Below, one piece after another: positions 2,468-33,621 of a stretch of 41,534 bases of DNA. Position numbers and translations under genes: made by a program. Position 1 is the first letter of the stretch; every line of letters starts with the position of its first letter. The stretch covers positions 1-41,534 of IMG/VR virus record IMGVR_UViG_3300005537_000038; one strand, written 5' to 3'. A model generated the notes under the pieces. The model did not search any database, was not told the origin of the DNA, and saw only the letters and a list, made by a program, of their open reading frames with translations. This DNA comes from a virus.

Positions 2468-2724
2468 AAAGAATATGCGATGCAACCGTTTTGATATTGG
2501 ACGATTTAGAGGACGCAAATCACGAAATCACGGACTTTGAAACTTTGCAGATTCCAGAAGGACGTGTCCCAGTTAGTCTAGATTTCAACATTTCTGCGCC
2601 GCTCGGATGGGCGACCCTTTACAGAGATGGCAACCGATTGAGGGCGAAAATGGAAATCGTTTCCGATATATCGCTCTGTCACTCAAAGAATACTGACAAT
2701 CGAATCGAGCCAGTTGATCTATGA
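2464..2724 (+). CDS. Small hypothetical protein
   Basis: An 86-residue acidic protein with an N-terminal strand (TVLILDDLEDANHEITDFE) and a second half that looks like mixed beta structure. I do not recognise a family. It starts in an ATGA overlap with the upstream methyltransferase and ends in another with the downstream FkbM-type enzyme, with a GGGGGAGC ribosome site before the ATG, so translation is credible. It may be a conserved small phage protein placed in an operon of convenience rather than an enzyme. Confidence 0.55.
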   Translation: MKRICDATVLILDDLEDANHEITDFETLQIPEGRVPVSLDFNISAPLGWATLYRDGNRLRAKMEIVSDISLCHSKNTDNRIEPVDL

Positions 2725-3362
2725 AACTCGTAAAACCAGGCGGAGAGCACACGATTGATCTGGACTTGCTGCCGGCGGTGCCGACCGTTTTGGATGTTGG
2801 CTGTCGCGGCTTTGCTTTCGATTACGACATTCTAAAATTCAGACCGCAGGCGAAGATCATCGCGCTTGAGCCAGACCCCGAAATTAAGAAGCCGGACGAT
2901 CTTGACATTCTGTTCTACAACGCTGCGCTGACCTGCATGGAATCACCGACATTGACACTTCAGACCGGCGGCGACGGCGAAGGCTCCTACATCGTCACGG
3001 GGCCGGGATTCCCCGGCTACGACTGGCCGATTCACGATCATTCCAAAATCGCGCAGGTCACGAACATTTCCGTCAAAGAATTTTTCAAGGTCTACACGAA
3101 GTTCGATCTGGTGAAACTCGACTGCGAAGGCTCTGAATTCGGAATCCTCGAAAACTGGCCGGGGCCAATCGCCACGCAAATCTCGGTTGAATTCCACGAC
3201 TATGCGAACCGCGCGCGCTGGAACACGGCATACTTTGTGAAGCTGTTTGCAGGGCCGCTGAAAGATTATCGCTCGGTTGTGTTCGGAGACACACCCATCG
3301 GCCCGACGAAGGCCCTAGGACATTGGGATTCGCTTCTGGTGCTCAACGAGGCCATTCGATGA
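2721..3362 (+). CDS. FkbM-family SAM-dependent methyltransferase
   Basis: A 213-residue enzyme with the standard FkbM layout. Motif I is VLDVGCRG at 23-30, strand 2 ends ALEPDP at 48-53, and the family hallmark VKLDCEGSE is at 131-139 (the usual form is K-I/L-D-V-E-G-x-E), followed by ISVEFHDY near 154-162. FkbM enzymes O-methylate hydroxyls of polyketides and sugars. Beside glycosyltransferases this family usually caps or decorates glycans, so methylation of a phage or host surface sugar is the natural reading. Length is normal for a single-domain member. The start is the ATG in the ATGA overlap with the small gene before it, and the stop overlaps the next ATG likewise. Confidence 0.8.
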   Translation: MKLVKPGGEHTIDLDLLPAVPTVLDVGCRGFAFDYDILKFRPQAKIIALEPDPEIKKPDDLDILFYNAALTCMESPTLTLQTGGDGEGSYIVTGPGFPGYDWPIHDHSKIAQVTNISVKEFFKVYTKFDLVKLDCEGSEFGILENWPGPIATQISVEFHDYANRARWNTAYFVKLFAGPLKDYRSVVFGDTPIGPTKALGHWDSLLVLNEAIR

Positions 3363-3553
3363 AGACCGAAACAAGAGAGCATGGCGATTATCTCCTTCGC
3401 ATTCGGGAAGGAAGATGGACGACGCGCTATACCCTTGCTGGAAAAAAGCAACTCCTCGACTTCTGTATTTTCCCAGACGGTGCTCGCACAGATGTTGAAC
3501 CTAAAAAACAGCGCGATCCTCGATTGATTCCTACGGAGTGGCGTAAAGGATGA
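3359..3553 (+). CDS. Small hypothetical protein
   Basis: A 64-residue, highly charged protein (MKTETREHGDYLLRIREGRW onward). I chose the ATG at 3359 because it forms an ATGA overlap with the FkbM gene; an earlier in-frame start at 3323 lies inside that gene and has no support. The pattern of short beta strands with Tyr, Arg and Gly resembles small phage proteins of unknown role. The stop overlaps the start of the next glycosyltransferase by four bases. No function can be given. Confidence 0.5.
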   Translation: MKTETREHGDYLLRIREGRWTTRYTLAGKKQLLDFCIFPDGARTDVEPKKQRDPRLIPTEWRKG

Positions 3554-4188
3554 AGTGGCAAATCCTCATCCTCACGCAGCCCTCGCGCCGCGAATTCCTG
3601 CGCCAACTCACTGAACTACTCGAACCGCAGATTAAATCCCTCGGCCTGCGCCGCTGCGAATCGGTAGAAGTCATCACGACAGAATTCGATCCGAAGTACG
3701 ACCTCGGCACCAATCGGCAGAAGCTCAAAGAGCAATCCGACGCTGAGTACATCAGTTTCATTGACGATGACGACCTTGTGGCGCCGGACTACATCGCATC
3801 GATTCTGCCGCTACTGGACGGCGTAGACCAGGTAGGATTCAACTTCGCGTGCCACATCGACCATGCCCCTGCTCTGATTGCTGAACACTCTCTCAAACAT
3901 ACAGGCTGGTATGTCGAGCCCGGAACCCCATCAAAGCCAGTGAAACTCTGTCGCGACATTTCGCATATGACCCCGATGCGCCGGGAACTGTCTCTTGCAA
4001 AGCCGATGTCTGGGGGATTCGGGGAGGACAGGCGCTGGGCAGATGCGATGCGTGGGCTGGTAAAGACCGAACACTACGTTGACAAAGTGCTCTATTATTA
4101 TTTATCCCGGACGCGGAAGAACGACGCCAAAGATGCGAACGATCCCTGGCGAATTGAATTCCTTGAAAAGTTACAGGCGAAAGTGTAA
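3550..4188 (+). CDS. Family 2 glycosyltransferase
   Basis: A 212-residue GT-A type glycosyltransferase. The N-terminal strand MKWQILILTQPSR is followed by the metal-binding block ISFIDDDDLVAPDY at about 68-81, the most typical DxD signature of GT2 enzymes in this window. Near the C-terminus MSGGFGEDRRWADAM supplies the acidic ED(xx)W segment that commonly acts as catalytic base region. It would transfer a sugar from UDP- or GDP-sugar in the cytoplasm. It is the last gene of the cassette; its TAA stop doubles as part of the -10 box of the promoter for the next operon, so transcription of the cassette and of the packaging genes is separately controlled. Acceptor unknown. Confidence 0.75.
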   Translation: MKWQILILTQPSRREFLRQLTELLEPQIKSLGLRRCESVEVITTEFDPKYDLGTNRQKLKEQSDAEYISFIDDDDLVAPDYIASILPLLDGVDQVGFNFACHIDHAPALIAEHSLKHTGWYVEPGTPSKPVKLCRDISHMTPMRRELSLAKPMSGGFGEDRRWADAMRGLVKTEHYVDKVLYYYLSRTRKNDAKDANDPWRIEFLEKLQAKV

Positions 4189-4252: not shown

Positions 4253-6466
4253 ATGCCGAACGAAATTCTATCACCCTACGATTCTTTCCTTGCATCCAAA
4301 GTTTCAAAAGCAAAGCCGTGCGGATTTGAAGTCGAAGCATCTACCCTCAATCCAAAACTATTCCCGTTCCAAAGAGACATCGTTCGATGGGCGCTCCGCA
4401 AAGGTCGCGCTGCGCTGTTCTGTGATTGCGGACTCGGCAAGACCATCATGCAACTGGAATGGGCGCGGAACATCGATGGGCGTGTTTTGATTCTGGCACC
4501 TCTCGCCGTAGCCCAACAGACCGTGCGTGAGGGTCGCAAATTCGGGATTGAGTGCGCCTATGCTCGGGCCTCTACGTTTGATCGCATTACAGTCACCAAT
4601 TACGAAATGCTAGACCGATTCGACCCCGAAGATTACGAAGGCATTGTGCTCGACGAATCCAGCATTCTGAAATCCTTCGAGGGTGAAACCCGAAACGAAA
4701 TCATCAACACATTTTCAAAGACTCCCTATCGGCTCGCTTGCACAGCTACTCCGGCGCCGAACGATTACATGGAACTCGGAAACCACGCGGAATTTCTCGG
4801 AGTGCTCTCGCGCACCGAAATGCTTTCGACTTACTTCGTTCACGATGGCGGCGAGACTTCCAAGTGGAGATTGAAACGCCACGCGACAAAGGACTTCTGG
4901 AAGTGGGTTTGCTCATGGGCTGTAATGATGCGTAAGCCATCGGATCTAGGTTATTCCGATGAGGGTTTCATGCTCCCAGACTTGAGATTCCACGATTTGA
5001 CAGTCGAAGCTGGAAAGCCTCTGCCTGGGCATTTGTTTGCGATGCCGGCCGCAACGCTAGAAGAACGGCGTGGAGCACGGCGCGAATCGATAGAAGAACG
5101 TGCTGCAGAAGTCGCACGCATCGTCGCCACGAAACCAAATGAGCCGTGGATTATCTGGTGCAACCTGAACAGCGAAAGCTCAATGGCTGCGAAGATTGCA
5201 GACGGTACGGAAATCTCCGGCTCAGATTCTCGCGAGGAAAAAGAGAAACGGATGCTCGGCTTTTCAAATGGCGACATTCGAGTGCTCGTTACCAAGCCTT
5301 CCATCTGTGGATTTGGGATGAACTGGCAGCATTGCTCGAATGTAATTTTCTTCGGATTATCTGACTCTTATGAGCAGTTCTACCAAGCCGTCAGACGGTC
5401 TTGGAGATTCGGGCAGAAGAATCCAGTGGACTGCTACATCGTGACTTCCATGAACGAAGGGGCCGTGACCGAAAACATAAAGCGGAAAGAAAAGGACGCT
5501 CAGAACATGGCGAAGCAAATGGTTTCCAATATGCACGAGATCAATGAATCCGAGATCAAAGGCGACGTGAAAGTCAAAAAGCAAGCCCATAAACTCACAG
5601 AGGCAAAGGGGAAAGCATGGCGCATGATCCTCGGGGATTGTGTGGAAGCGACTCGACAGATCAAAACGGATTCTATCCACTACTCGATATTTTCTCCACC
5701 TTTTGCAAGCCTCTATACATACTCGGCTTCCGAAAGAGACATGGGGAATTGTCGAACGCATTCTGAATTCTTCGAGCACTTCCGTTTTCTGACCGGAGAA
5801 CTGTTGCGAGTGACGATGCCGGGTCGTCTACTGAGTTTTCATTGCATGAATCTCCCAACCAGCAAACAGCGAGATGGCGTCATTGGGATCTCCGATTTCA
5901 GGGGAGAACTGATTCGCATTTTTCAGGACGCTGGATTTATCTATCACTCGGAAGTCTGTATCTGGAAAGACCCCGTTACGGCGATGCAGCGCACAAAAGC
6001 ATTAGGGCTTCTTCATAAGCAAATAAAAAAAGATTCCTGCATGAGCCGTCAAGGGATACCGGACTATCTCGTAACCATGCGAAAACGGGGAGACAATCCA
6101 GAGCGCGTCACGCACACCAACGAGAGTTTTCCTGTTTCGGTCTGGCAGAAATACGCTTCTCCGGTCTGGATGGACATTGACGCAGGAGACACGCTGCAAC
6201 GAGAATCGGCCCGCGAGCAAGAGGACGAACGTCACATTTGCCCCCTACAACTTGGAGTCATTCGTCGGGCATTGGAGTTGTGGTCTAACCCCGGCGACTT
6301 AGTTCTCTCTCCGTTTGCTGGAATTGGGAGTGAGGGATACATCGCCTTGCAAATGCAGCGCAGATTCTTAGGCATCGAACTCAAGAAAAGCTATTTCGAG
6401 CAGGCTGTGGCAAACTGCAAATCTGCGGAGAGTGCGTCATGCGGGCTGTTCGAGAACGAATCCTAG
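4253..6466 (+). CDS. SF2 helicase fused to a DNA (N4-C/N6-A) methyltransferase
   Basis: A 737-residue two-domain enzyme. Residues about 35-415 are an SF2 DEAD/SNF2-like helicase: a Q-type FPFQRDIV near 37-44, Walker A CGLGKT at 59-64, the DExx box DESS at 134-137, motif III TATPAPND at 164-171 and motif VI QAVRRSWRFGQ at 378-388. Residues about 455-737 are a beta-order DNA methyltransferase: the catalytic SPPF motif at 481-484 comes before the SAM-binding SPFAGIGSEGY at 686-696, the order seen in N4-cytosine and N6-adenine enzymes. Similar fusions are known in phages; they probably translocate on and modify phage DNA before packaging, perhaps against host restriction. The AGGAGG ribosome site and the promoter upstream fix the start. 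No specificity (target recognition) domain is evident between the two halves. Confidence 0.85.
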   Translation: MPNEILSPYDSFLASKVSKAKPCGFEVEASTLNPKLFPFQRDIVRWALRKGRAALFCDCGLGKTIMQLEWARNIDGRVLILAPLAVAQQTVREGRKFGIECAYARASTFDRITVTNYEMLDRFDPEDYEGIVLDESSILKSFEGETRNEIINTFSKTPYRLACTATPAPNDYMELGNHAEFLGVLSRTEMLSTYFVHDGGETSKWRLKRHATKDFWKWVCSWAVMMRKPSDLGYSDEGFMLPDLRFHDLTVEAGKPLPGHLFAMPAATLEERRGARRESIEERAAEVARIVATKPNEPWIIWCNLNSESSMAAKIADGTEISGSDSREEKEKRMLGFSNGDIRVLVTKPSICGFGMNWQHCSNVIFFGLSDSYEQFYQAVRRSWRFGQKNPVDCYIVTSMNEGAVTENIKRKEKDAQNMAKQMVSNMHEINESEIKGDVKVKKQAHKLTEAKGKAWRMILGDCVEATRQIKTDSIHYSIFSPPFASLYTYSASERDMGNCRTHSEFFEHFRFLTGELLRVTMPGRLLSFHCMNLPTSKQRDGVIGISDFRGELIRIFQDAGFIYHSEVCIWKDPVTAMQRTKALGLLHKQIKKDSCMSRQGIPDYLVTMRKRGDNPERVTHTNESFPVSVWQKYASPVWMDIDAGDTLQRESAREQEDERHICPLQLGVIRRALELWSNPGDLVLSPFAGIGSEGYIALQMQRRFLGIELKKSYFEQAVANCKSAESASCGLFENES

Positions 6467-6615: not shown

Positions 6616-8438
6616 ATGAACCCAAAAGGCCACGTCGAAAGCCTCACCGCTCCAAGATTCAAGCCGGGAGAAAGCGGAAATCCGGGCGGGAAACCAAAGA
6701 AGCGGCCAATCACGGACGAATACTTCGCGCTCGCAAACATAGAAATTCCGAAACCGATCTGCAAACTCCTGAAGATCAAATACATTCCGGGCCGGACATT
6801 CTCGCAAGCGAACGCGCTGCAACGGTTCATGGACATGCTGCGGAAGGACGGCTCGGGCCACAGGTCAGCGAAAGAAGTCCGGGAAGCGATGGAAGGAAAG
6901 GCTCCGCAGAGGGTGGAGATCAGCGGCCCGGATCAGACAGTGATAACCCTGAGAATCCTGAACGACCGGAAGCCCCCGAAATCCAACGGATAGAATATAC
7001 CGTCCACAATCTGAATCCTTTTCCAAAGCAGCAACTCTTCATTGACTCCGACAAGAAAAGAAAAATGCTTCGCGCCGGAAGACGTGGCGGAAAGACTTCC
7101 GGCTCATCCATCCTCGCAGTCGAAGGTTTGGTTGATAAGGGAAACCGCGTGCTCTATGCCGTTCCCACTCAAGATCAAGTCGCACGCTTCTGGCATGAGA
7201 TCGTTCAATCCCTCGCAGAGCTAATCGAGTTTGGCATCCTCAAGAAATACGAATCAGACAAGATCATCGAATTCCCCGGCACGGAAAAACGAATCAAGGC
7301 AAAGACGGCATGGAACGCCGATTCACTCCGCGGTGACTACGGCGACTTAATCATCCTCGACGAATTCCAGTTGATGAACGAAGACGCGCTGGATGTCGTG
7401 GTCTACCCGATGCTCGCGGACAATAACGGGGATCTGGTGCTGATCTACACTCCACCGCGTTTGTATTCACGCTCGACATCGAAGGCGACAGACAAGAGGC
7501 ACGCCGCGAAGCTCTACAAAGAAAAGCAGAACGATCCCCGCTGGCTGTGCATGACTTGGACATCTTACGATAACCCGCACATTTCCAGAGAAGGACTGGC
7601 CGAAATATCGGTGGACATGACAGACCTCGGCCGGCGGCTTGAGATCATGGCTGAAGATGTGGAAGAAGTACCAGGAGCCCTATGGACGCCGGCGATGATT
7701 GAAGCGACTCGCGTGAACGACATTCCACCGGAAGCCTTGCCGCTGACCCGCGTCGTGGTGGGCGTTGACCCGTCGGGAAGTTCAACGAACGAGGCTGGCA
7801 TAGTCTGTGCTGCGCTCGGCAAAGACGGCCACGGATATATTCTGGCAGACAGATCACTCTTGGCGCCGACTCCACGCTCTTGGGCGCAAGAGGCTGTTTG
7901 GCTCTACCACGAAAAGAAAGCAGACAGACTTCTCGGAGAAAGAAACTACGGCGGCGACATGATCCGGCAACTGATTCGTGAAGTGGATGGCAACGTTGCC
8001 TACAAAGACGTGACGGCCACACGGAGCAAACTTGTGCGCGCCGATCCTATCGCAGCTCTCTATGAAATTCCCCGCTCGGCGGTGCACCATGTTGGAGTCT
8101 TTGAAAAGCTCGAAGAAGAAATGTGCAGCTATGTTCCGGGCATAACTCCTGTTTCGCCAAACCGGATGGATGCGCTCGTCTGGGCGCTCACGGAATTATT
8201 CCCGCTCAATGTCAGACTCACTCTTGCAGAACAGCAGAATGAGGAGCAAGATGCCCAAGTGAAAGTCGCGCAGTCACAACTTATCAAGCCAGCGACGAAC
8301 GAGAAGACGGGTATGTGCCCTGAGTGCGGATCGAAGGCAATCAACAAACGTGGGCCGCTGTGGGTCTGTGCCCAGTGCCAACATCACTGGGGCAACGCTC
8401 CGGTGCCAGCAGCGACAGGCGGGAGAACTGGCGTATGA
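6612..8438 (+). CDS. terL: Terminase large subunit with C-terminal zinc ribbon (start uncertain)
   Basis: Packaging ATPase-nuclease. In numbering from 6612, the conserved part begins near residue 127 (base 6990): LNPFPKQQLFI is the adenine-binding region, Walker A GRRGGKT is at 156-162, Walker B DLIILDEF at 245-252. The RNase H-type nuclease starts with VVVGVDPSGSS near 380 and ends with SPNRMDALVWAL near 515-526. After that comes a CPECG ... CAQC zinc ribbon near 569-590, not part of standard large terminases. The frame is open back to the ATG at 6612, but residues 1-126 overlap the small-terminase-like gene in another frame and look like unselected Arg/Pro/Ser-rich sequence. No ATG, GTG or TTG lies between the end of that gene and the ATG at 7065, which would remove the adenine-binding motif. 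A rare start near 6990-7011 or frameshifting from the small gene is therefore possible. Confidence 0.85.
   Translation: MNEPKRPRRKPHRSKIQAGRKRKSGRETKEAANHGRILRARKHRNSETDLQTPEDQIHSGPDILASERAATVHGHAAEGRLGPQVSERSPGSDGRKGSAEGGDQRPGSDSDNPENPERPEAPEIQRIEYTVHNLNPFPKQQLFIDSDKKRKMLRAGRRGGKTSGSSILAVEGLVDKGNRVLYAVPTQDQVARFWHEIVQSLAELIEFGILKKYESDKIIEFPGTEKRIKAKTAWNADSLRGDYGDLIILDEFQLMNEDALDVVVYPMLADNNGDLVLIYTPPRLYSRSTSKATDKRHAAKLYKEKQNDPRWLCMTWTSYDNPHISREGLAEISVDMTDLGRRLEIMAEDVEEVPGALWTPAMIEATRVNDIPPEALPLTRVVVGVDPSGSSTNEAGIVCAALGKDGHGYILADRSLLAPTPRSWAQEAVWLYHEKKADRLLGERNYGGDMIRQLIREVDGNVAYKDVTATRSKLVRADPIAALYEIPRSAVHHVGVFEKLEEEMCSYVPGITPVSPNRMDALVWALTELFPLNVRLTLAEQQNEEQDAQVKVAQSQLIKPATNEKTGMCPECGSKAINKRGPLWVCAQCQHHWGNAPVPAATGGRTGV
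6616..6993 (+). CDS. DUF5681-like protein, probable small terminase subunit
   Basis: A 125-residue protein whose N-terminal FKPGESGNPGGKPKKRPITD (residues about 15-34) is the hallmark of the DUF5681 domain found next to large terminases. The remaining helical part, with RSAKEVREAMEGKAPQRVEI, fits a small terminase-like DNA recognition and oligomerisation region. It would bind the packaging site and hand DNA to the large subunit. The ATG at 6616 directly follows a TGA at 6613-6615. Another ATG at 6612, in a different frame, opens the long frame that ends as the large terminase, so the two coding regions overlap for the full length of this gene; the codon pattern and known motif make this frame the true one here. 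Confidence 0.65.
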   Translation: MNPKGHVESLTAPRFKPGESGNPGGKPKKRPITDEYFALANIEIPKPICKLLKIKYIPGRTFSQANALQRFMDMLRKDGSGHRSAKEVREAMEGKAPQRVEISGPDQTVITLRILNDRKPPKSNG

Positions 8439-8638
8439 AGTGGCTAACAAACCTTTTCGATCAGTGGTTTATGAGCGTGCCCGATCCGATCAGTGTGAAT
8501 TCTGCCTGCCCTGCTTGCGGGAATCGTGGCTGTCAAATCCTGTTTGATCCGGCGGCGAATAAGGTCGTCCGCACCTGCAACACCTGCCATTGCGTAGTAA
8601 CGCAACCCCCTATCGCTCCTCACTTGTTCGGAAAGTAA
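8435..8638 (+). CDS. Small zinc-ribbon protein
   Basis: A 67-residue protein beginning MKWLTNLFDQWFMSVPDP. It has two CxxC-type pairs, CPACG and CNTCHC, separated by about 20 residues, the standard zinc-ribbon spacing. The ATG at 8435 forms an ATGA overlap with the terminase stop; an upstream in-frame start at 8324 lies within the terminase gene and is rejected. The ribbon resembles the one at the C-terminus of the terminase just upstream, so the two may share a partner or derive from one another. A structural or DNA-binding role in packaging is possible; nothing more can be said. Confidence 0.6.
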   Translation: MKWLTNLFDQWFMSVPDPISVNSACPACGNRGCQILFDPAANKVVRTCNTCHCVVTQPPIAPHLFGK

Positions 8639-8644
8639 CTTCCG

Positions 8645-8660
8645 TGCGATATTCTCCGCG
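8645..8660 (+). promoter_or_regulatory. Extended -10-like element directly before portal GTG
   Basis: TGC (8645-8647) then GATATT (8648-8653), with TTGTTC 18 bases upstream as a possible -35. The portal GTG begins at 8660, six bases after the hexamer, and no Shine-Dalgarno sequence is visible. If it is used, the mRNA would start at or beside the GTG and be leaderless. Confidence 0.3.
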
Positions 8661-10948
8661 TGGCTAACCAGCTTACGAAGTTCTTCCGCAACCCGATTCA
8701 ATCCCTGTCGAATCTGGTAACTCGTCCTGTCTCGCGCAGCGATGATCTAAACGCATACTTCGGGCCAGGTGTGGAAGTTGCGCCGATTGCGCCGAAGGGC
8801 ACAGAGCCTCGCGGCTGGCAATACTGGCCTTTTCAGAATCAGACGTACACGCCAAGACCGGATGCGATCTACACCGCGCAGCAGCTCAGGACTTTTGCAA
8901 CGTACTTCGTCGCCAGAATTTGTATCGAAAATTGTAAGGACGTTCTGACTCAAATGCCGCGACAGATCCGCGCCGTCAAGAAACCCGGCGAGACAAACAA
9001 AGAGAGAGAGAAGCGATCACTCGGCGATCCGACGCTGAAGATGCTGAACGACTTTTTCGACTGCCCCGATGGTGAACATGATTGGGAGCGCTGGCTCAGG
9101 GAATGGCTCGAAGGCGTCTATGTCGGAGATTGGGCGTCAATCAACATCCGACGCAAGAGAAATGGCTCGATCTATCAAGCCCGCGTCGTGGATGGCGCTT
9201 TCATCAACCGGCAGATAGACGAGTTTGGCTATACACCCCAGCCGCCGCTGACTGCTTATCAAATGCTGTGGAGTGGTACGCCGTCAACTGTCGGTGGAAT
9301 TCCGTACACGGATATGACGACCGACCAGTTGCTCTACTGGCCGCGCAACATCGTCCCTCGAAACACCGTCGCAAGCTATCTCTACGGCTTCAGCCCGACC
9401 GAGCAAGGCGCGGAGGAAATCCAGCTTGGGCAGAACCGACTGAATATGTGGGTGCTCTGGTACACCGCTGGAGTCATGCCGGATGCGATCCATGTCGTAC
9501 CCCCTTCGATCACACCGGACAAGTTGAAAGAAGCTCAGAAGGCTTTGAACTCAGAAATGAGCGGGCAGCTTTACAAACGCTCGGGCGCCATCAGACTTTT
9601 GCAGGGATTCGTAGACAGAGAACAGCCTGGCGGCTCTTCGGGCGATCAATTCATCTTCCCGAAAGAGAAGATGCTGGCAGACCCGTTCGATGAGATGCAC
9701 CTTCGCAAGATGGCCTTTCTCTACGGCTGTTCGATTCAAAGACTGATGAAGCAAATGAACCGGGCGTCCGCACAATCGAGTCAAGAATCTGCCGAAGAAG
9801 AAGGAACTCAGCCAGTAGCCGCCTCTGTTCGCGCGATGGTGAATTGCCTCATCGCGAAGTATTTCAAGATTGGGCCAAATCAATATGAACTGACTTTCGA
9901 TACTCCGGTCGAACTCGATCCGGTGAAGAGGGCAGCAGCATCGAAGAGCGATGTGGACTCAGGAATCATCAGCCGCGATGAGGACAGAATCTCTCGCGGG
10001 CTTGACCCAGTAGGCGGCGACGCTGCGAAGCTGATGATCACCACAGCTATGGGAACCGTGCCCGTCAGCCTCGATGAACAGATGCAGCTCGCCCAGCAAA
10101 AGCAGGACATGGTTACGCAGTCGAAGCAACAGCAGGGAAACGAGGGCACGCAAAAGATTGAGAAGCGCCGTGTGCCGCGGATTGATCCTGGCCTCGCGAC
10201 CCCAGACACGCACCAAGCAAAAGCACGGCTAGAAAACGAGCTGAAGAAGATATTCAAACGGCAAAGCGAGAAGGCCGTCGAAGTTGCCAGCCGTATTCTG
10301 AAGATGCGGAAGGACGACGACCCGGAAAAGAAGGCCGATCAGATTAACGACGCCATCAAAGACCAATGGAACAGCCTGCCTCTATTGGCGCGCGAAGCGT
10401 TGGAGCAAGCCTCGCTTGCAGGAATCTCAGACGGAATACTTCAGCTAGAGATCATGGATGGGAAGTTCATTTCCTCGGTCAACGAGATCGCGCGAGACTA
10501 CGCAACGATGCGGGCCGCTGAAATGGTGGGCATGAAGTACAACGCGGCCGGTGAACTCGTTCCGAATCCAAATGCAAAATGGGTTATTTCGGATACGACC
10601 AGAGACAGATTGCGGCAACTCGTGACGAATGCCTTCGAGGAAAAGACTCCGATGTCTCGCCTCATCGAGGACATCCGAACGTCTGACGCCTTCAGCGATG
10701 CGCGTGCGAAGATGATTGCGAACACCGAAGTCTCGACAGCTCAAGTGCGAAGCAACTACAAAGTGTGGGAAGATGCCGGAGTCGCGAAAGTCAAATGGTT
10801 AGCTCTGGGCCCGGAGCCGTGCCCGATCTGCATAGAGAATAATGGACAAGTCAGAAAGATCGGCGAGAACTTCCCATCCGGTGAGAAGGCACCGCTGGCA
10901 CATCCCAACTGCGAGTGCATCCTGACGGCGATAGGATTTAACCAATGA
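8660..10948 (+). CDS. Portal protein fused to MuF-type minor head domain
   Basis: A 762-residue fusion. Residues about 1-460 look like an HK97/SPP1-type portal: an N-terminal clip and stem region with RKRNGSIYQARVVDGAFI, then LRKMAFLYGCSIQRLMKQMNR in the crown-side helix; the portal dodecamer is the DNA entry and exit channel. Residues about 675-762 are a MuF (F-like minor head protein) domain: SDARAKMIANTEVSTAQ, a CPIC pair at 721-724 and the terminal HPNCEC at 748-753. These motifs are usually on a separate protein that is packaged with the head and may be injected. The start is a GTG at 8660 with no clear ribosome site. The gene ends in an ATGA overlap with the next. A fusion of portal and MuF is known but uncommon. 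Confidence 0.8.
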   Translation: MANQLTKFFRNPIQSLSNLVTRPVSRSDDLNAYFGPGVEVAPIAPKGTEPRGWQYWPFQNQTYTPRPDAIYTAQQLRTFATYFVARICIENCKDVLTQMPRQIRAVKKPGETNKEREKRSLGDPTLKMLNDFFDCPDGEHDWERWLREWLEGVYVGDWASINIRRKRNGSIYQARVVDGAFINRQIDEFGYTPQPPLTAYQMLWSGTPSTVGGIPYTDMTTDQLLYWPRNIVPRNTVASYLYGFSPTEQGAEEIQLGQNRLNMWVLWYTAGVMPDAIHVVPPSITPDKLKEAQKALNSEMSGQLYKRSGAIRLLQGFVDREQPGGSSGDQFIFPKEKMLADPFDEMHLRKMAFLYGCSIQRLMKQMNRASAQSSQESAEEEGTQPVAASVRAMVNCLIAKYFKIGPNQYELTFDTPVELDPVKRAAASKSDVDSGIISRDEDRISRGLDPVGGDAAKLMITTAMGTVPVSLDEQMQLAQQKQDMVTQSKQQQGNEGTQKIEKRRVPRIDPGLATPDTHQAKARLENELKKIFKRQSEKAVEVASRILKMRKDDDPEKKADQINDAIKDQWNSLPLLAREALEQASLAGISDGILQLEIMDGKFISSVNEIARDYATMRAAEMVGMKYNAAGELVPNPNAKWVISDTTRDRLRQLVTNAFEEKTPMSRLIEDIRTSDAFSDARAKMIANTEVSTAQVRSNYKVWEDAGVAKVKWLALGPEPCPICIENNGQVRKIGENFPSGEKAPLAHPNCECILTAIGFNQ

Positions 10949-12813
10949 TCGGAGTATGGCAAAACAAGGGCAGCGTTATCACAGGCGTTGACATGCCTGA
11001 ACAGCCATCGGTTATTTTCGAGGGCAACGCGCAGATACTTTCTGGCAATGTATTCAAGATGTGGTACACGACCGGAACGCCGAACAACCCGGCGCAAGTC
11101 GCGCTGAATTACGCTGAATCAACCGATGGCCTGGCATGGACAAAATACAGCGGCAATCCGATTTTAGCTCCCGCCTGGGGATCGAGAGTTTATAAGCACG
11201 GCTCGACATATTTCTTATTTACGACGCCCGGTGAGGTATTTTCGTCCAACGGAATCAGCGTTTACACATCCAGCGACGGACTTACGTGGACACTGGCAAA
11301 AGCAAACGCGATAACAACGAGCGCGGATCTTTGGGAGAACAAATTCGTCTGCCAGCTCAACGTTTGCGCGGTGGTGAGCGGCATCTGGTACGGCTACTAC
11401 ACAGGAGTAAACAACCCCGATAATCAAAATTTCTACGGTGGGCTGGCTACATCAACCGACGGAATCAACTGGACGAAAGACCCCGGCAATCCGGTCGCGT
11501 CGTTCGATTCCGGCGCACTCTTGGACGGCTCAACCTACAACGGCTCCGGTAACTGGACGTTTGCCTTTGCGAATGGAAAATACTACGCATGGTCACAAAC
11601 CACGCTGTTCGCCGGAAACAATGTGGGACAGCCAACCGATATTATGCGATGGTCTGCTCCTACTCCAAGTGGCCCGTGGACGGCTCTCGGTGTCGCTACA
11701 TTGCCTCGTACGGTCGCCAGTGAAGGTGTGGGAAAACCGACAGGGCAAACCGCCGATCCCTGCATCCTAGAAGTTGCTGGCAAGACTTATATGTTTTATA
11801 CAGCCAACGGTGCTGGGTCTACGTTTGATTACGCAATCAATCTAGCTATTGCGGATATGACCATCGCTGCCCTCACGCTGACTTATGAGGGCGTGCAGAA
11901 TGTTCCGTCACCCGGTGGACTATCCCTGACCCTTAATCCTCTTGGCTCTGACAATTTCCAGCGAGCCGACGCCAATCCAATCGGCGGGAACTGGACACAG
12001 GCTTATGACGGTAGCGGTTGGAGTGCGGGTCAACTTGCAGGCCACCTATACGAATGCGCCACTGCAGGAGATCGAGCCGACTCTTATTGGAATGCAGCAT
12101 CATTCCCCGATGACCAGTGGGCAACTATTAAATTAGGCTCAATCACAAATTCCTCAAGTTACGTCGCTGTTGATTTGCGCGTGGCGGGAGCCGATGCGGG
12201 TACCTTCTATGACTTTGCATGGGGTGGTGCGGCGACTGGCGGCCCCGGAACTTATTTCATGCAGAGATACTTCGCAGGTGCGCTAAAAACCATCGCAGGC
12301 GGAACCATGACCGTCAACGATGACGACGAACTGACCGCTGTTGTTATCGGAAGCAACATTCTTATCTACCAGAACGAAGCACTCATATTTATTTTTAACG
12401 ATACCGATATTCCGAGCGGCGGTTCAGCCGGACTCTTGGCGCTTGGCGGATCAACTGCCAATGCCGCTACTATCTCGGCTTGGAAGGGCGGGAGCGTTCA
12501 AGCTGCGCCGCCAATCGCATCGGGATTCTCGATTTCTGGTAGTGCAGGAATAGCGGGAGCAACCGTTTCCTACAGCGGCCCATCATCGGGCTCAGTTGTC
12601 GCCGACGGATCGGGAAACTATTCGATCACAGGTCTAGCGAATGGCTTCTATATCATCACACCGTCTTTGGCCGGGCAGTCTTTCACTCCGGGCAGATCAT
12701 CTGTGCTCATCAATGGGGCGAACATATCAGGCGTGAACTTCCGGGCAGTGAAGGGCGACCATCTATTCCTCTCGACATTCGGAGCGGTCATTGCAGCTCT
12801 CGGCGGGAAGTAG
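10945..12813 (+). CDS. Beta-propeller (GH43/GH32-like) - lectin - Ig-like protein in the head module
   Basis: A 622-residue protein unlike a head morphogenesis gene. Residues about 15-320 contain repeated blades with the pattern (Y/M)xxSTDGxxWTK(x)xGNP, characteristic of five-bladed propellers of the GH43/GH32/GH130 glycosidase folds; YAESTDGLAWTKYSGNPIL, YTSSDGLTWTLAK and ATSTDGINWTKDPGNPV are the clearest. Residues about 335-520 resemble a concanavalin/laminin-G-like sandwich (NFQRADANPIGGNWTQAYDG start). Residues about 525-600 look like a carboxypeptidase-regulatory or SdrD-like beta sandwich (GIAGATVSYSGPSSGSVV ... GNYSITGL). It has no signal peptide. Catalytic carboxylates cannot be assigned with certainty. 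It may be a head decoration protein that binds or cuts glycans. The start overlaps the portal stop (ATGA). Confidence 0.6.
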   Translation: MIGVWQNKGSVITGVDMPEQPSVIFEGNAQILSGNVFKMWYTTGTPNNPAQVALNYAESTDGLAWTKYSGNPILAPAWGSRVYKHGSTYFLFTTPGEVFSSNGISVYTSSDGLTWTLAKANAITTSADLWENKFVCQLNVCAVVSGIWYGYYTGVNNPDNQNFYGGLATSTDGINWTKDPGNPVASFDSGALLDGSTYNGSGNWTFAFANGKYYAWSQTTLFAGNNVGQPTDIMRWSAPTPSGPWTALGVATLPRTVASEGVGKPTGQTADPCILEVAGKTYMFYTANGAGSTFDYAINLAIADMTIAALTLTYEGVQNVPSPGGLSLTLNPLGSDNFQRADANPIGGNWTQAYDGSGWSAGQLAGHLYECATAGDRADSYWNAASFPDDQWATIKLGSITNSSSYVAVDLRVAGADAGTFYDFAWGGAATGGPGTYFMQRYFAGALKTIAGGTMTVNDDDELTAVVIGSNILIYQNEALIFIFNDTDIPSGGSAGLLALGGSTANAATISAWKGGSVQAAPPIASGFSISGSAGIAGATVSYSGPSSGSVVADGSGNYSITGLANGFYIITPSLAGQSFTPGRSSVLINGANISGVNFRAVKGDHLFLSTFGAVIAALGGK

Positions 12814-12814
12814 A

Positions 12815-13105
12815 ATGTCACGTCTGGAAAGACTCGTCTCTGCGATTGAAAAGGCAGAGGATTCTATTGCTCGCACACAGACCAGGCTCCGCAGGCTTCG
12901 CCACGAAGCGAGAATGGAAATAAAGACACGCGCCGGTACGAATACTCTTTCAGCGCGCCAGGCTCAAGTCGCGGACATGGTGCGGGAACATTCAAACAAA
13001 GAAATCGCTGCCGCTCTTTCGATCACAATCCGCACCGTAAAATTTCACGTCTCAAATCTGCTTCAGAAGTTTGAAGTTCACTCGCGCAACGAATTGCCGT
13101 TTTGA
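12815..13105 (+). CDS. LuxR/GerE-type helix-turn-helix protein
   Basis: A 96-residue protein. The first 35 residues are a basic helix, likely coiled coil (RLERLVSAIEKAEDSIARTQ). Residues about 45-94 are a LuxR/GerE DNA-binding domain: LSARQAQVADMVREHSNKEI is the first two helices and TIRTVKFHVSNLLQKFEV the recognition and dimer helices, with the conserved Lys-Glu-Ile-Ala and Thr-Val-Lys-x-His positions. There is no receiver or ligand domain, so it would act as a stand-alone regulator. The ATG at 12815 is two bases after the previous stop; an earlier in-frame start at 12791 lies inside that gene. A transcription factor between head structural genes is unusual; late-gene control is a reasonable guess. 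Confidence 0.75.
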   Translation: MSRLERLVSAIEKAEDSIARTQTRLRRLRHEARMEIKTRAGTNTLSARQAQVADMVREHSNKEIAAALSITIRTVKFHVSNLLQKFEVHSRNELPF

Positions 13106-13135
13106 GCACATTCACCCCATCGGACTAGGGCGCTC

Positions 13136-13152
13136 TGTTACCCTCATTCTCG
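13136..13152 (+). promoter_or_regulatory. Extended -10-like element before prohead protease GTG
   Basis: TGT (13136-13138) and TACCCT (13139-13144) form a weak extended -10, seven bases before the GTG at 13152. No convincing -35 is present and no Shine-Dalgarno precedes the GTG, the same arrangement as at the portal gene. Leaderless translation is possible. Confidence 0.25.
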
Positions 13153-14606
13153 TGGAACCGCTTCTAAAATACTTTCCGCTTCTAAAAGTGGACGAGTCCG
13201 CGCACATGGTCTGGGGACTCGTCACATCTGAAGCGCCCGACAGCGACAAAGAAATCTGCGATTATGCTTTCGCCAAGGCCGCAATCCAGAAATGGTCTGA
13301 CGAGACTCTCGCAAAGACGACAGCCGCTGGCCAAGACCCTTCACTTGGAAACATGCGCGTCATGCACCAGCTCCAGATCGGCGGCAAGGCAATCAAGATC
13401 GAATACAAAGACGCAGAAAAACAGGTCTGGGTCGGTTCGGAACCTGCAAACGATGAAGTGTGGCATCTGCTCAAAGGCGGCTTTCTAACTGCTCATTCCA
13501 TCGGTGGGTCGTACGCCTGGCGAAAGCCGGAAGGCGAATATGAACGCTACGGCCCGACGATCAATGAGATCAGCTATGTTGACCGGGGAGCCAATCCTGA
13601 AGCAAGTTTTTCGTATGTGAAAGCTGACGGCACAACCGAACTCCGCAAGTTCGCGAAGCCCGGCCCGGAAGAAGAAAAGATTCTGCGGAAGATGAAAGAA
13701 TCGCAGATGACGAATCTATCCGATGAGGACATTGCGCGAATCGCAAGGTCTCTTGCTGAATCTCTCTCGAAGGGCGTGAAGTATTTGGTGCCAGATGGAA
13801 AGCATTTGCCTTACACCGACGAATCCGGCAAGCCTTCTCATTCGCACATGGGCGCAGCCTGGGCCGCTCTGCACGGCGGCTATCGTGGGAACAAATACGA
13901 AGGCCCTGGCAAAGAAGAAGCGATTGCACACCTGAAAGAAATCTACCGTCAAGAGGGCATGGAACCGCCGTCCTCGAAGGCGATTCTCGCGGAACTGGAA
14001 AAACTCAATCTTCTCGATGATTCAGAATTAGACACAGGCTTAACAAAAATATCCGCAGTTGTAGCCGAACTTATGGGAAAACTATCCGCAGCAAAGGAGC
14101 AAAGCCCGATGAAGCTAACCGCTGAACAGATTAAGAAATGCGCCGACGCCTTGGGCGTCACGGTCGAGGAATTCGAGAAGACCGACATTGTGGAAAAGGC
14201 CAAGCACGGCATCGCTGCGCTGCACTCCCATCTGGAAACAGCGAAGGCACACCACGACGGGATGATGAAAGCCCACGAGTCAATGGCGTCGATGCACGAA
14301 AAGCATTCTGCACACCTCGACAAGTGCATGAAGGCTTGCAAGGCCGTGATGGGCGACGACGAGAAGGAAGCGGATAAGGCGATTAAGTCTTTGCTCGCAG
14401 ACCTCACGAAAGTTGAAACGACCGACGACAGCAAAGCCGGAATCAGCGCCGAAGAGATGCAGAAGCGCGTCGATGAGGCCGTGAAGAAGGCCATCGGGGA
14501 ATTGCCGGAAACGCAGAAATTGCGGATCGTGCCGCGAGACAGCGGCGAACTCGTCAAGAGGGCAGAAGCCCGCGATGCAGTAGTCGCAGCGACATCGCCT
14601 TACTAA
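13152..14606 (+). CDS. Prohead protease with C-terminal scaffold-like region
   Basis: A 484-residue protein (from the GTG at 13152) of the XkdF-like prohead protease type. It begins MEPLLKYFPLLKVDESAHMV and continues with GLVTSEAPDSDKEICDY, LGNMRVMHQ, and FLTAHSIGGSYAWRKPEG then PTINEISYVDRGANPEA, all standard in this family; the His in MRVMHQ and the Ser in AHSIGGS are the likely catalytic residues. The middle holds a HLPYTDESGKPSHSHMGAAW element. The C-terminal third is a His/Met/Lys-rich helix (near TAKAHHDGMMKAHESMASMH) typical of a scaffold that shapes the capsid and is then digested. A longer frame opens at 13071 inside the HTH gene, but the conserved start at MEPLLKYF argues for 13152. 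Confidence 0.8.
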   Translation: MEPLLKYFPLLKVDESAHMVWGLVTSEAPDSDKEICDYAFAKAAIQKWSDETLAKTTAAGQDPSLGNMRVMHQLQIGGKAIKIEYKDAEKQVWVGSEPANDEVWHLLKGGFLTAHSIGGSYAWRKPEGEYERYGPTINEISYVDRGANPEASFSYVKADGTTELRKFAKPGPEEEKILRKMKESQMTNLSDEDIARIARSLAESLSKGVKYLVPDGKHLPYTDESGKPSHSHMGAAWAALHGGYRGNKYEGPGKEEAIAHLKEIYRQEGMEPPSSKAILAELEKLNLLDDSELDTGLTKISAVVAELMGKLSAAKEQSPMKLTAEQIKKCADALGVTVEEFEKTDIVEKAKHGIAALHSHLETAKAHHDGMMKAHESMASMHEKHSAHLDKCMKACKAVMGDDEKEADKAIKSLLADLTKVETTDDSKAGISAEEMQKRVDEAVKKAIGELPETQKLRIVPRDSGELVKRAEARDAVVAATSPY

Positions 14607-14656
14607 CTTTTCAAGTTTCGAGTTGCTGATAATTCAGGTTCTTGGAGGATGGGAAA

Positions 14657-16582
14657 ATGAATCGACGCTCTTACAGCGGAATGGAACGCGGCACGATGGG
14701 CACCTACGCCGGGCCGATTGCCGATCAGTACGTCGCAGACCAGCAAGCCGTCATGCGGAACAACGTCATCAAAGGCTGGCGCGACGAACGGAAAGAACAG
14801 CTCCGCAAGTATGCCCAGGGTGTCAGCGACCTCAAACGACTTCGCGACGGCATCAACGAATGGATTCAGTACAAGGCTCCGATGCGTGGCGAGCGCGTCG
14901 GCAGCGAAGCGGAATTCAACGCAGCGATGGCGAAGTACACCGTTGAATTTGACAACCGCTCGGCCATCGTGAACGACATGATGAAGGGCTTGGTCGAGGA
15001 CTACCGGCAGCGAATGATGAAGGCCGGACTCACGACTTCCACCGGATACAATTTTTACGATTTGCGCGGCCCCGCATATTTAATTTACCCCGTCAACACC
15101 CCGATGCGGAACCAACTCGCGCGCTGGGGAAAGGTCAATGCAGGTTACGGCACCGCGGCCAACTGGAAATATACCTACCTCTCGCCCGGCACTTCTTACG
15201 CAGGCGCACTCGAAGGCGAGCGCGTTGCGACCGCTTCCCCGAACGAGAACAATGCCGTTGCGACTTACGCGGAACTGGGCGTTGAGCGATCGGTGACTTT
15301 CACCGCAGAATTTGCAGGTGAAGGGTACACCGATAACGTCGCAGACGAGCATCTTCGCGGCGCGCACGAACTCTGGCTGCAGGAGGAATCAATCATCTGG
15401 GGTGGCAATCCTGGCACCGGCTCCGGCTTGAATGGGTTTGCTCTTGGCACCGCCAACACTCCCTCGACTTCTGTGGCGGCTTCAGTGCCGGCTGGCTACA
15501 CCTCAGACGGTGGAGCGGGATTTGCAGATTCAACTTTCGTCTCGGTCTACGTTGTCGAGTTGACCATGCTGGGCGACCCGAACAATGCTCAGTATGGTTA
15601 TCAGGCAGCGCCGACAGTGGCAAACGGTCTTGTCGCCAGCTACACGCGAACCAACGCCGACTCGACGACCAACACGATCAAGGGCGGCATGGGCGCGATC
15701 AGCGCGGCCTCGAACGTATCGGAAGCTCTGACAGCCACGCCTTTCGTTCTAGCGAAGGTAGTCCCGAAGAAGGGCGCTTTCGCATGGGCTTGGTACGTGG
15801 ATGTCACCGACGCCACGACACCGGCGAAGGCCAATGCTTATCTGACGGCGATCACGACCACGCCTTACATCTACCTCGGCAATGCGACACCTGGCGCGCA
15901 GACCGCGGCTTTCACCGGGGCGACCACCGACAATTCTTACGAAGTCCTGGACTTCGCCGGAATCCTCGCTTGGGCCGTGAACAACGGCACCGTCATCAAC
16001 ATGAGCGATCTGACCGCGACTTCGCCGGTAACAAAGGCGACCAATACCGGCTTGCTGAATCCCGGCATGGCCAGCGGACAGAATTCCGTTCCGGCTGTGG
16101 CCGAAATCGAATACGACCTCGAACAACAGTGGAACGTCTTGCAATCTGTCGCAGACGAAATCTGGTGTTCGGCAGATGTGAAGCGGAATATCCAAGCGGC
16201 TCTGTTCACGAACACTTCTGGAGTCCCTGCTTATCGGTTTGAAGTGTCTCGCGACTCTCAGGGAAACATCCTGGGCGGCTTCACGGTCAGCGGATACAAG
16301 TCTCTGTACTCGATGAAGGACACCGGCTCGGAAGAAATTCCGATCAGGATTCACCCGATGCTGCCGGTGGGCACGATGGTCTATCGCCGGAACACAAACC
16401 CATATCCATCTTCGCGGATTCCTGGCGTAGCTGGCATGTTCGTCCAAAGAGATTATTACGGCATTGAGTGGCCGATCACGACCCGCGCTTGGACTTTCGG
16501 GACTTACGTCCATGAGGTCTACGGCGACTACATCCCGGCGTTCTTGACAGTGCGGACTGGCATCACCGGAGTCGCAACTTAA
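14657..16582 (+). CDS. Major capsid protein (HK97-fold, large with insertion)
   Basis: A 641-residue protein directly after the protease, the normal place for the major capsid. GGAGG at 14644-14648 lies eight bases before the ATG, fixing the start; the in-frame TTG at 14642 is rejected. The N-terminal roughly 120 residues are charged and helical (delta-domain-like). Later segments fit the HK97 fold: AELGVERSVTFTAEFAGEGY, LWLQEESIIWGGNPGTGSGLNGF, WNVLQSVADEIWCSADVKRNI and the C-terminal MVYRRNTNPYPSSRIPGVAG and WPITTRAWTFGTYVHEVYGD. It is about twice the usual length, with a roughly 200-residue insertion near 290-460 rich in Ala, Thr and Gly that is probably an Ig-like surface domain. Followed by a strong terminator. 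Confidence 0.85.
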   Translation: MNRRSYSGMERGTMGTYAGPIADQYVADQQAVMRNNVIKGWRDERKEQLRKYAQGVSDLKRLRDGINEWIQYKAPMRGERVGSEAEFNAAMAKYTVEFDNRSAIVNDMMKGLVEDYRQRMMKAGLTTSTGYNFYDLRGPAYLIYPVNTPMRNQLARWGKVNAGYGTAANWKYTYLSPGTSYAGALEGERVATASPNENNAVATYAELGVERSVTFTAEFAGEGYTDNVADEHLRGAHELWLQEESIIWGGNPGTGSGLNGFALGTANTPSTSVAASVPAGYTSDGGAGFADSTFVSVYVVELTMLGDPNNAQYGYQAAPTVANGLVASYTRTNADSTTNTIKGGMGAISAASNVSEALTATPFVLAKVVPKKGAFAWAWYVDVTDATTPAKANAYLTAITTTPYIYLGNATPGAQTAAFTGATTDNSYEVLDFAGILAWAVNNGTVINMSDLTATSPVTKATNTGLLNPGMASGQNSVPAVAEIEYDLEQQWNVLQSVADEIWCSADVKRNIQAALFTNTSGVPAYRFEVSRDSQGNILGGFTVSGYKSLYSMKDTGSEEIPIRIHPMLPVGTMVYRRNTNPYPSSRIPGVAGMFVQRDYYGIEWPITTRAWTFGTYVHEVYGDYIPAFLTVRTGITGVAT

Positions 16583-29747: not shown

Positions 29748-30580
29748 GCGCGCCGACTCCGACAAATATAGACTTCAGCGATTCGACTCCACCGGCGCCG
29801 CCAGGTCGCATCAACGTCGAATGGCTGGCAAGCTCGCCCGTTCCGATCACCGTCAATTTGAATGGCGTTGATACAGTTCTGCAATTCCGCAAACTCTCTG
29901 CCAGCGTTCCGAATCCAGGTTCGCCTGGTGGTGGGACTTTGGCTGTCTTTGAGATTCCGATCACCGCTACTTATGCAGGCAATTTCACGGTTGCTCACGG
30001 TCTGACCTCGACGCCTTCTTTCGTGATTGTGCAGATGGAATCTGGAGGCAACATCTGGCTTCAGACTCCGGGCTTTGATGGAACGAACTTATATCTCACA
30101 GCTTCCGATGCTGGAGTCTCAGGAACGGCAGTTTGTTTTATGGCTCTGCCCGATGCAGTGATTCCGATCTCGCCCATCTATACCGGAGATTTTTCCCTTC
30201 CTCACGGCCTCGGAGCGACACCAGCCTTAGCTCTTGTGCAAATGACTTCTGGCGGGTCTATTTGGTTTCAAACGGTGCCTTACGACGCAACAGATGTAAA
30301 CCTTGTAGCTTCCGATGTTGGCGTCTCAGGAATTGTTTATGTCTGGCTGCACATGCCGACGATCACTGTCGTCACTTCAGCACAAATTCCTTTGGCACCA
30401 AGCGCGCCTGGAAACTTCACCGTAGCCCACGGGCTCGGCAAAACCCCGACTCTGGTTATAATCCGAATGTCATCTGGTGGTTCGATCTGGCTCCAGGAAC
30501 CGCCTTATGATGCAAGCGATCTCTATTTAGTAGCTTCCGATGCAGGAGTAACAGGAGAGGCTGAAGTATGGACAAGCTAA
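29744..30580 (+). CDS. Tail fibre protein with three tandem repeats
   Basis: A 278-residue protein after the tail tip. Residues about 78-132, 147-202 and 222-276 are three copies of a roughly 55-residue unit whose pattern is GNFTVAHGLxxTP, VxMxSGGxIWxQ, PxDxxxxxLxASDxGV. In copy 2 the first block is GDFSLPHGLGATP. Proteins of this sort usually trimerise into a fibre shaft or form a receptor-binding tip; the HGL-Gly-Gly-Ile-Trp pattern resembles discoidin-like or lectin repeats. The first 70 residues (PTPTNIDFSDSTPPAPPGRI) are Pro-rich and probably dock to the tail tip. No signal peptide. The ATG overlaps the tail-tip stop, and the end overlaps the next gene by 13 bases. Confidence 0.65.
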   Translation: MSAPTPTNIDFSDSTPPAPPGRINVEWLASSPVPITVNLNGVDTVLQFRKLSASVPNPGSPGGGTLAVFEIPITATYAGNFTVAHGLTSTPSFVIVQMESGGNIWLQTPGFDGTNLYLTASDAGVSGTAVCFMALPDAVIPISPIYTGDFSLPHGLGATPALALVQMTSGGSIWFQTVPYDATDVNLVASDVGVSGIVYVWLHMPTITVVTSAQIPLAPSAPGNFTVAHGLGKTPTLVIIRMSSGGSIWLQEPPYDASDLYLVASDAGVTGEAEVWTS

Positions 30581-31539
30581 AATATCTGCTATTGCTTTTG
30601 ATCTTTGCGATTCCAGCCCGGGCACAGACGCCACCGCTTTTCTCAGTCAATGCGAAATATCTCGGCTGGGCGGGAACCGGCGGCGGTACGGCCAACGCTC
30701 AGACGGTCACGTACTCCCCGGCGATCACGACACTGACGGCAGGGCAGGCGGTGTCATGGATTCCGTCTCACGCTAACACGACAGCCGCGACTTTGAACGT
30801 GAACAGCATCGGTGCGAAAGCCATCGTCAAAGCGAATGGCTCGGCCCTTGTAGCAAACGACCTTCTTACGAGCTCTGTTGCAACTGCGGTCTATGATGGG
30901 ACTTCTTTCGAACTTCTCGATCCGCAAAGCGGCAGTGGGGCAAGCGTCACTTGCGGACAATTACCCGCTCTGACGGGCGACACGACAACGAGCGCGGGAT
31001 CATGCGCGACAACGACGAGCAAATTGAATGGCACTTCTTTCGCAGGAACTTCGACGCATCTTGTGGCGTTTGGTGCTGCAAACATTCCGGTGGATTCTGG
31101 AATCGTGGACACCGCTGCGGGGCTTCTAGCGGCCTGTACCGGCTGCGCTCCGCTCGCATCTCCTGCTCTTACCGGCTCGCCGACGGCACCGACACAATCA
31201 GCGAACGATAATTCCACGAAGATCGCAACGACGGCCTATGCCGACCGGCACTCCACCACAATAGCCGCAGGAACTTCAGCACTCGGTACAGGTTCGATTT
31301 CTTCAGGTGCCTGTGCCTCGGTTGTCACAACGACGGCAACCGGCACTCTCACCACCGATCCGATTACAGCAACACCGAATGCGGACATTCACGGAGTCAC
31401 CGGATACGGAGCCACGACCGGACTTCTAACCGTGTATGCCTACCCGACCGCGGATAATGTGAACTTTTTAGTGTGCAACTGGACGGGAAGTTCGATTACT
31501 CCCGGCGCGGTCACTCTGAATTGGACGGTGGTTCGATGA
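30568..31539 (+). CDS. Tail-fibre-like protein with an N-terminal secretion signal
   Basis: A 323-residue protein. Residues 1-19 are a standard Sec signal peptide: Lys-rich start, LLLLLIFAIP core and ARA as cleavage site before Gln20. The body contains phage fibre patterns: SPALTGSPTAPTQSANDNST followed by KIATTAYADRHS is the tail-fibre repeat (xPALTGxPTAPT..N.STxIATTAYAD), and SYDGTSF-like strands resemble fibre shafts. The C-terminal about 90 residues are a beta domain with SGACASVVTTTATGTL. Fibres are assembled in the cytoplasm, so a signal peptide is unexpected and suggests either a secreted or surface adhesin or a recruited host-type gene. Ends in an ATGA overlap with the next. Confidence 0.65.
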   Translation: MDKLKYLLLLLIFAIPARAQTPPLFSVNAKYLGWAGTGGGTANAQTVTYSPAITTLTAGQAVSWIPSHANTTAATLNVNSIGAKAIVKANGSALVANDLLTSSVATAVYDGTSFELLDPQSGSGASVTCGQLPALTGDTTTSAGSCATTTSKLNGTSFAGTSTHLVAFGAANIPVDSGIVDTAAGLLAACTGCAPLASPALTGSPTAPTQSANDNSTKIATTAYADRHSTTIAAGTSALGTGSISSGACASVVTTTATGTLTTDPITATPNADIHGVTGYGATTGLLTVYAYPTADNVNFLVCNWTGSSITPGAVTLNWTVVR

Positions 31540-33246: not shown

Positions 33247-33621
33247 ATGAAAAGAATTCTGCCGTGGCTTCTTTTTGCTTTTCTGATTGTTTCGCTGATC
33301 TTCGGGCCGACGCTCAAAGGACTTCGAGCGCAGGCTGGACACAACATCACTCTGAATTGGACGGCACCGACGACCGGAGGCGCACCGACAAGCTATAACG
33401 TCAAGCGCGGCACGAGCGCGGGATCGGAAACCCAACTTGCGACAGTCGCAGCTCCGGCGACGACCTACGTGGACACGACCGGAGTGGGCGGGACGAAATA
33501 CTTCTATGTGGTGACGGCTGTGAATAGCGCCGGGGAATCTGGCCCATCGAACGAAGCGAATGCAACTTTTTTATTGCTGGCTCCGGGGGCTCCGGCGGCG
33601 CTGGCGGCTGTGGCAAACTAA
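33247..33621 (+). CDS. Secreted or membrane-anchored FnIII-domain protein
   Basis: A 124-residue protein. The N-terminal hydrophobic segment (MKRILPWLLFAFLIVSLIFG) may be a signal peptide with an AQA cleavage site near residue 30, or a membrane anchor. Residues about 33-110 form one fibronectin type III domain: HNITLNWTAPTTGGAPTSYN, then YFYVVTAVNSAGESGPSNEA, with the conserved Trp, Tyr and the VxAxNxxG end. The end LLLAPGAPAALAAVAN is low-complexity. Good AGGAG ribosome site and its own leader suggest separate control. FnIII modules in phages are usually on virion proteins; on a secreted protein it suggests surface binding. Confidence 0.7.
   Translation: MKRILPWLLFAFLIVSLIFGPTLKGLRAQAGHNITLNWTAPTTGGAPTSYNVKRGTSAGSETQLATVAAPATTYVDTTGVGGTKYFYVVTAVNSAGESGPSNEANATFLLLAPGAPAALAAVAN

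Follow-up and report, generated by a model that had tools for sequence, protein, structure and literature searches.

The window analysed here is a DNA stretch of 41,534 nucleotides from a metagenomic virus, a soil-type phage (positions 1 to 41,534 of the IMG/VR record IMGVR_UViG_3300005537_000038). At 10945..12813, on the + strand, it contains a gene for a protein of 622 aa, here called P0001, which is made up of a propeller, a CBM66-like domain and an Ig-like domain. The ATG at 10945 shares the sequence ATGA with the stop codon of the portal gene, the translation start has a plausible Shine-Dalgarno sequence (AGGA), and the stop codon lies at 12813. P0001 has no signal peptide, and upstream extension of its ORF does not reach one either. 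The left neighbour (8660..10948, + strand) is a portal protein with a C-terminal Mu F-like domain (phrog_2662, E=2.5e-65). The right border of the slot is formed by an XkdF-like head maturation protease (13071..14606, + strand), whose true start is probably the GTG at 13152, judging by comparison with the sequence of L007. A putative major capsid protein (14642..16582, + strand), named so from its position, follows; it matches phrog_13692, to which no function is assigned. The original prediction had put the P0001 gene between portal and protease, and the portal/MuF and XkdF-like flanks bear this out with exact coordinates. The slot also holds a small stand-alone LuxR/GerE-type helix-turn-helix ORF (12815..13105, + strand), which sits in the head operon with the propeller gene before it and the protease after it.

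A second, shorter contig carries an identical P0001 gene, which therefore did not arise as an isolated assembly error. A scan of the region 8400-14700 for sigma-70-like promoters found no internal one (other promoter types were outside the scan), and on this result a moron-type promoter of its own was rejected for P0001. Recent foreign insertion was likewise rejected by composition, as GC content is 0.53-0.54 at 10.9-12.8 kb and shows no step.

This place in the head block had been predicted to be an unusual one for such a gene, in agreement with the gene order of two relatives. The cultured phage Polewnik has no insert between portal and protease, and in L136 the portal is followed by the protease after a gap of 28 bp. 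Among 45 non-redundant portal-protease loci, the interval was empty in 31 and filled in 14. L136, L137 and L007 are the nearest relatives. The portals of L136 and of the sister phage L137 are 61–62% identical to that of the window, and in L137 (9321-11478) the slot contains a fibre that has a signal peptide and a K1-lyase_C-like end (a weak match, E=1.6e-4, below the cutoff) and a GDSL/SGNH esterase (E=5.6e-14). The slot of L007 contains a signal-peptide fibre together with a signal-peptide propeller protein. Two further slot proteins, L139:2674-3915 and L170:5068-7176, have no Pfam match; by eye, they resemble spikes with a parallel beta-helix of the pectate-lyase type. The numbers of empty and filled loci and the varied contents show that the portal-protease interval is an optional, recurrent cargo site, and that what it carries is often fibre-like or glycan-active.

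Residues 1-312 of P0001 (10945..11880, + strand) form a five-bladed beta-propeller of the GH43/GH32/GH117/GH130 type. AlphaFold predicted this part with confidence, and Foldseek matched it to GH32 levanases, GH43, GH130 and GH159. Searched against the PDB, the family profile hit GH117 at E=1e-11, and also GH43, GH32 and GH130. The match to Pfam GH43 (E=3.8e-7, 30.2 bits) is slightly below the curated cutoff of 32.2. Against viral structures, Foldseek gave loose propeller or sialidase-like matches only. Blades with a repeated STDGxxWTK sequence had been proposed, and three motifs of the form [ST][ST]DG..W were found, at aa 59, 109 and 170, as against a mean of 0.004 and a maximum of 1 in the shuffled protein. 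Structure prediction with Foldseek, the check that had been suggested, thus yielded the propeller, and the profiles agree with it. P0001 therefore shares the five-bladed fold and the blade repeats with the hydrolases and phosphorylases of these families. It differs from them in that the canonical GH43 D/D/E set can be placed in no blade register, the Pfam cutoff is not reached, and the module is fused to phage fibre modules.

The next domain, aa 329-520 (11929..12504, + strand), is a ConA-type beta-sandwich close to CBM66. Most of aa 313-526 was unresolved in the first AlphaFold model, but an alignment of 22 lectin rows gave a confident model of the lectin and Ig part (mean pLDDT 88.7). The best structural neighbour of the sandwich was the CBM66 of the Bacillus subtilis levanase SacC (target TM about 0.68, E=2.9e-7), and a profile of the lectin domain recovered the same protein by sequence (E=3.5e-6). 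Both the ConA-type sandwich and a sequence-level relation to CBM66 are therefore present, and in SacC, too, this domain adjoins a propeller. However, identity is about 19%, and the likeness is one of fold and profile. The third domain, aa 525-603 (12517..12753, + strand), is an Ig-like or carboxypeptidase-regulatory-like domain, with a Pfam match to CarboxypepD_reg (E=1.1e-3) and a confident model. The lectin-like and carboxypeptidase-regulatory-like parts of the original prediction were thus confirmed as well. No virion-anchoring, trimerisation or tail-attachment domain was recognised in P0001.

We then considered whether the propeller is an enzyme or a binder. In GH43, the innermost strands of blades n, n+2 and n+3 carry the catalytic base, modulator and acid, respectively, where they begin. 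We aligned 19 phage propellers and compared them by sequence columns and model strands. The canonical Asp/Asp/Glu triad fitted none of the five blade registers in these 19 sequences: conserved acids are lacking where strand A begins in blades II and IV, and blade I has no conserved Asp that could serve as the base. Alignments obtained with a profile of bacterial propellers were fragmentary and unusable as a control for catalytic residues. Near the strand starts, strong conservation of acids is confined to E26, E131 (blade III) and E260, kept in 17-18 of the 19 sequences, and to D271 (blade V), kept in 13. D271 is lost in the subgroup with two CBM66-like domains, and the protein is nonetheless kept there. 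Since no register gives the full triad and D271 is missing from this subgroup, a canonical GH43 mechanism is unlikely, and the proposal that P0001 is a sugar enzyme was not upheld in this form. The absence of the triad is not final as an argument, because GH117 and GH130 are members of the clan whose active sites differ from the GH43 set.

P0001 might accordingly still be an active virion depolymerase or glycosidase which digests host capsule through a non-canonical or blade-shifted active site. Its fold is that of GH32, GH43, GH117 and GH130 enzymes, the levanase carries its CBM66 next to a propeller as P0001 does, the GDSL esterase and the K1-lyase_C-like fibre are slot partners in relatives, and the conserved glutamates and D271 leave room for such a site. 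However, base, modulator and acid can be placed together in no register of the 19 sequences, and for this reason a sugar-binding adhesin seems more likely than a depolymerase, which we regard as rather unlikely. Another way to read a GH43-like propeller is as an auxiliary metabolic gene, a hydrolase of plant or soil polysaccharides serving host nutrition, and a GH43-like annotation would indeed group P0001 with soil-virus CAZymes. This is very improbable: the protein has neither the canonical triad nor a leader, its start overlaps the portal stop, and its module recurs on tail fibres.

The relatives of P0001 point to tail fibres. About 20 related proteins were found in IMG/VR, and they are encoded within structural gene blocks, with terminase, portal, capsid or tail genes as neighbours; the closest is that of L007 (44%). 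In the best bacterial match (L039), the propeller forms the C-terminus of a tail fibre which an Anaerolinea prophage encodes directly after its tape-measure/distal-tail genes (neighbours named by reading their translations). In L005, it is the C-terminal domain of a spike-like protein of 1099 aa, whose N-terminal repeats look beta-helix-like by inspection. The propeller of L116 directly follows a homologue of the window's tail-fibre gene at 30568-31539, ahead of TerL and portal, and that of L010 lies beside a phrog_1640 tail protein. The module is thus present on tail fibres of other phages, whereas P0001 itself is free-standing and its gene lies outside the tail-tip region, between portal and protease. 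The CBM66-like lectin domain is doubled in L016, L104, L108, L110, L111 and L116. In addition, a lone CBM66-like domain of 209 aa is encoded at L103:8112-8741 as a free-standing protein, directly 3′ of a propeller gene. No PHROG family matches P0001. INPHARED (about 50,700 phage records), queried by tblastn with P0001 and with two distant propellers, gave no match, and in the literature on five-bladed propeller tailspikes and on signal peptides of phage fibres we found no direct precedent.

Sec-type leaders were predicted on the propeller homologues of L007, L010, L011, L117 and L120. Overall, 7 of 24 slot ORFs but only 6 of 248 other ORFs carried one (Fisher p=2e-5, only indicative, because the predictor was a simple home-made rule and the loci are related). 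Such leaders fit export better than assembly in the cytoplasm. They would suit an exported non-virion protein that binds glycans and coats the infected cell or debris, blocking superinfection or the loss of progeny to debris, with P0001 as a leaderless derivative. However, P0001 has no leader, nor can one be reached by extending its ORF upstream. Moreover, leaders are also found on the phrog_1640 tail protein (L010:12794-16354) and on the window's tail-fibre-like genes at 30568, 31473 (from Met 31536) and 33076 (from Met 33247), and are therefore no sign of a non-virion protein. We consider export as a non-virion protein distinctly unlikely. These three tail-fibre-like genes (30568-31539, 31536-33173 and 33247-33621) close the tail module, and their Sec signal peptides are clear. 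Some slot and fibre proteins may leave the cell before they meet the virion, and the leaders are the least explained part of the system.

The original prediction had also suggested the glycan product of the window's left cassette as a possible ligand of P0001, and this was not supported. G005, G006 and G007, in none of which a propeller was found, retain the GT2 gene (3550-4188) at 52-57% identity, and G002, the closest propeller-bearing relative, lacks the FkbM gene (2721-3362); both absences are provisional, as the records may be fragments. A link between cassette and propeller was therefore rejected. The GT2-type glycosyltransferase, just 5′ of TerL, is conserved in at least four relatives and is apparently a core gene of the lineage. 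Also in this part of the window, 4253-6466 encodes a single 737-aa protein in which a helicase (SNF2/DEAD type) is fused to an N6/N4 DNA methyltransferase.

Its propeller relatives either adjoin fibre genes or form part of them, and we read P0001 as a tail-fibre-type adhesin. Our preferred explanation, which we hold to be somewhat probable, is that P0001 is an adhesin of tail-fibre or tailspike origin which binds glycans, has no or at most weak catalytic activity and is displayed on the virion. The domains, the lack of a placeable triad, the synteny, the variation of the slot and the fusion of this module with tail fibres in other phages were all observed; from them we infer incorporation into the virion, a capsid or tail site there, and a sugar ligand. 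P0001 would be translated together with the portal, within the late head operon. Sugar would be bound by two units, the glycosidase-type propeller and the CBM66-like sandwich, and the Ig-like domain may serve as a spacer or for attachment, as such domains do in many virion proteins. Displayed on the virion, P0001 would anchor particles to the host's capsular or extracellular polysaccharide. The slot that it fills is optional, and related phages keep other fibre-like or glycan-active genes there.

An Ig-like domain and a place in the head gene block are both found for P0001, and coating of the capsid, as had been suggested, is possible; the comparative evidence favours tail-fibre-type adhesins. 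A role in host adhesion has been proposed for the Ig-like decoration proteins Hoc of T4, pb10 of T5 and gp17 of N4, and tailspikes are a possible origin of decoration proteins (PMC7602432). P0001 shares with these three the Ig-like domain, the location in a virion gene block and the proposed adhesion to carbohydrate (PMC7602432), and can therefore be seen as a variation on a known theme. It differs from them in that its putative sugar-binding part is the propeller with the CBM66-like domain.

Our results show the portal-protease gap to be a variable cargo site, used for adhesins and glycan-active genes. The P0001 family consists of putative sugar-binding phage proteins with no PHROG and no match in the phage records searched, and it has an enzyme fold in which the usual catalytic set cannot be located. 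Annotation pipelines would tend to label P0001 as a GH43 auxiliary metabolic gene, and this label is probably wrong. A wider and quite doubtful possibility is that the lineage uses the interval to swap glycan-recognition proteins (fibres, esterase, propeller-CBM66), often Sec-exported, which exit the cell and then coat the host surface or join virions after lysis. If true, this would be an extracellular route for equipping virions.
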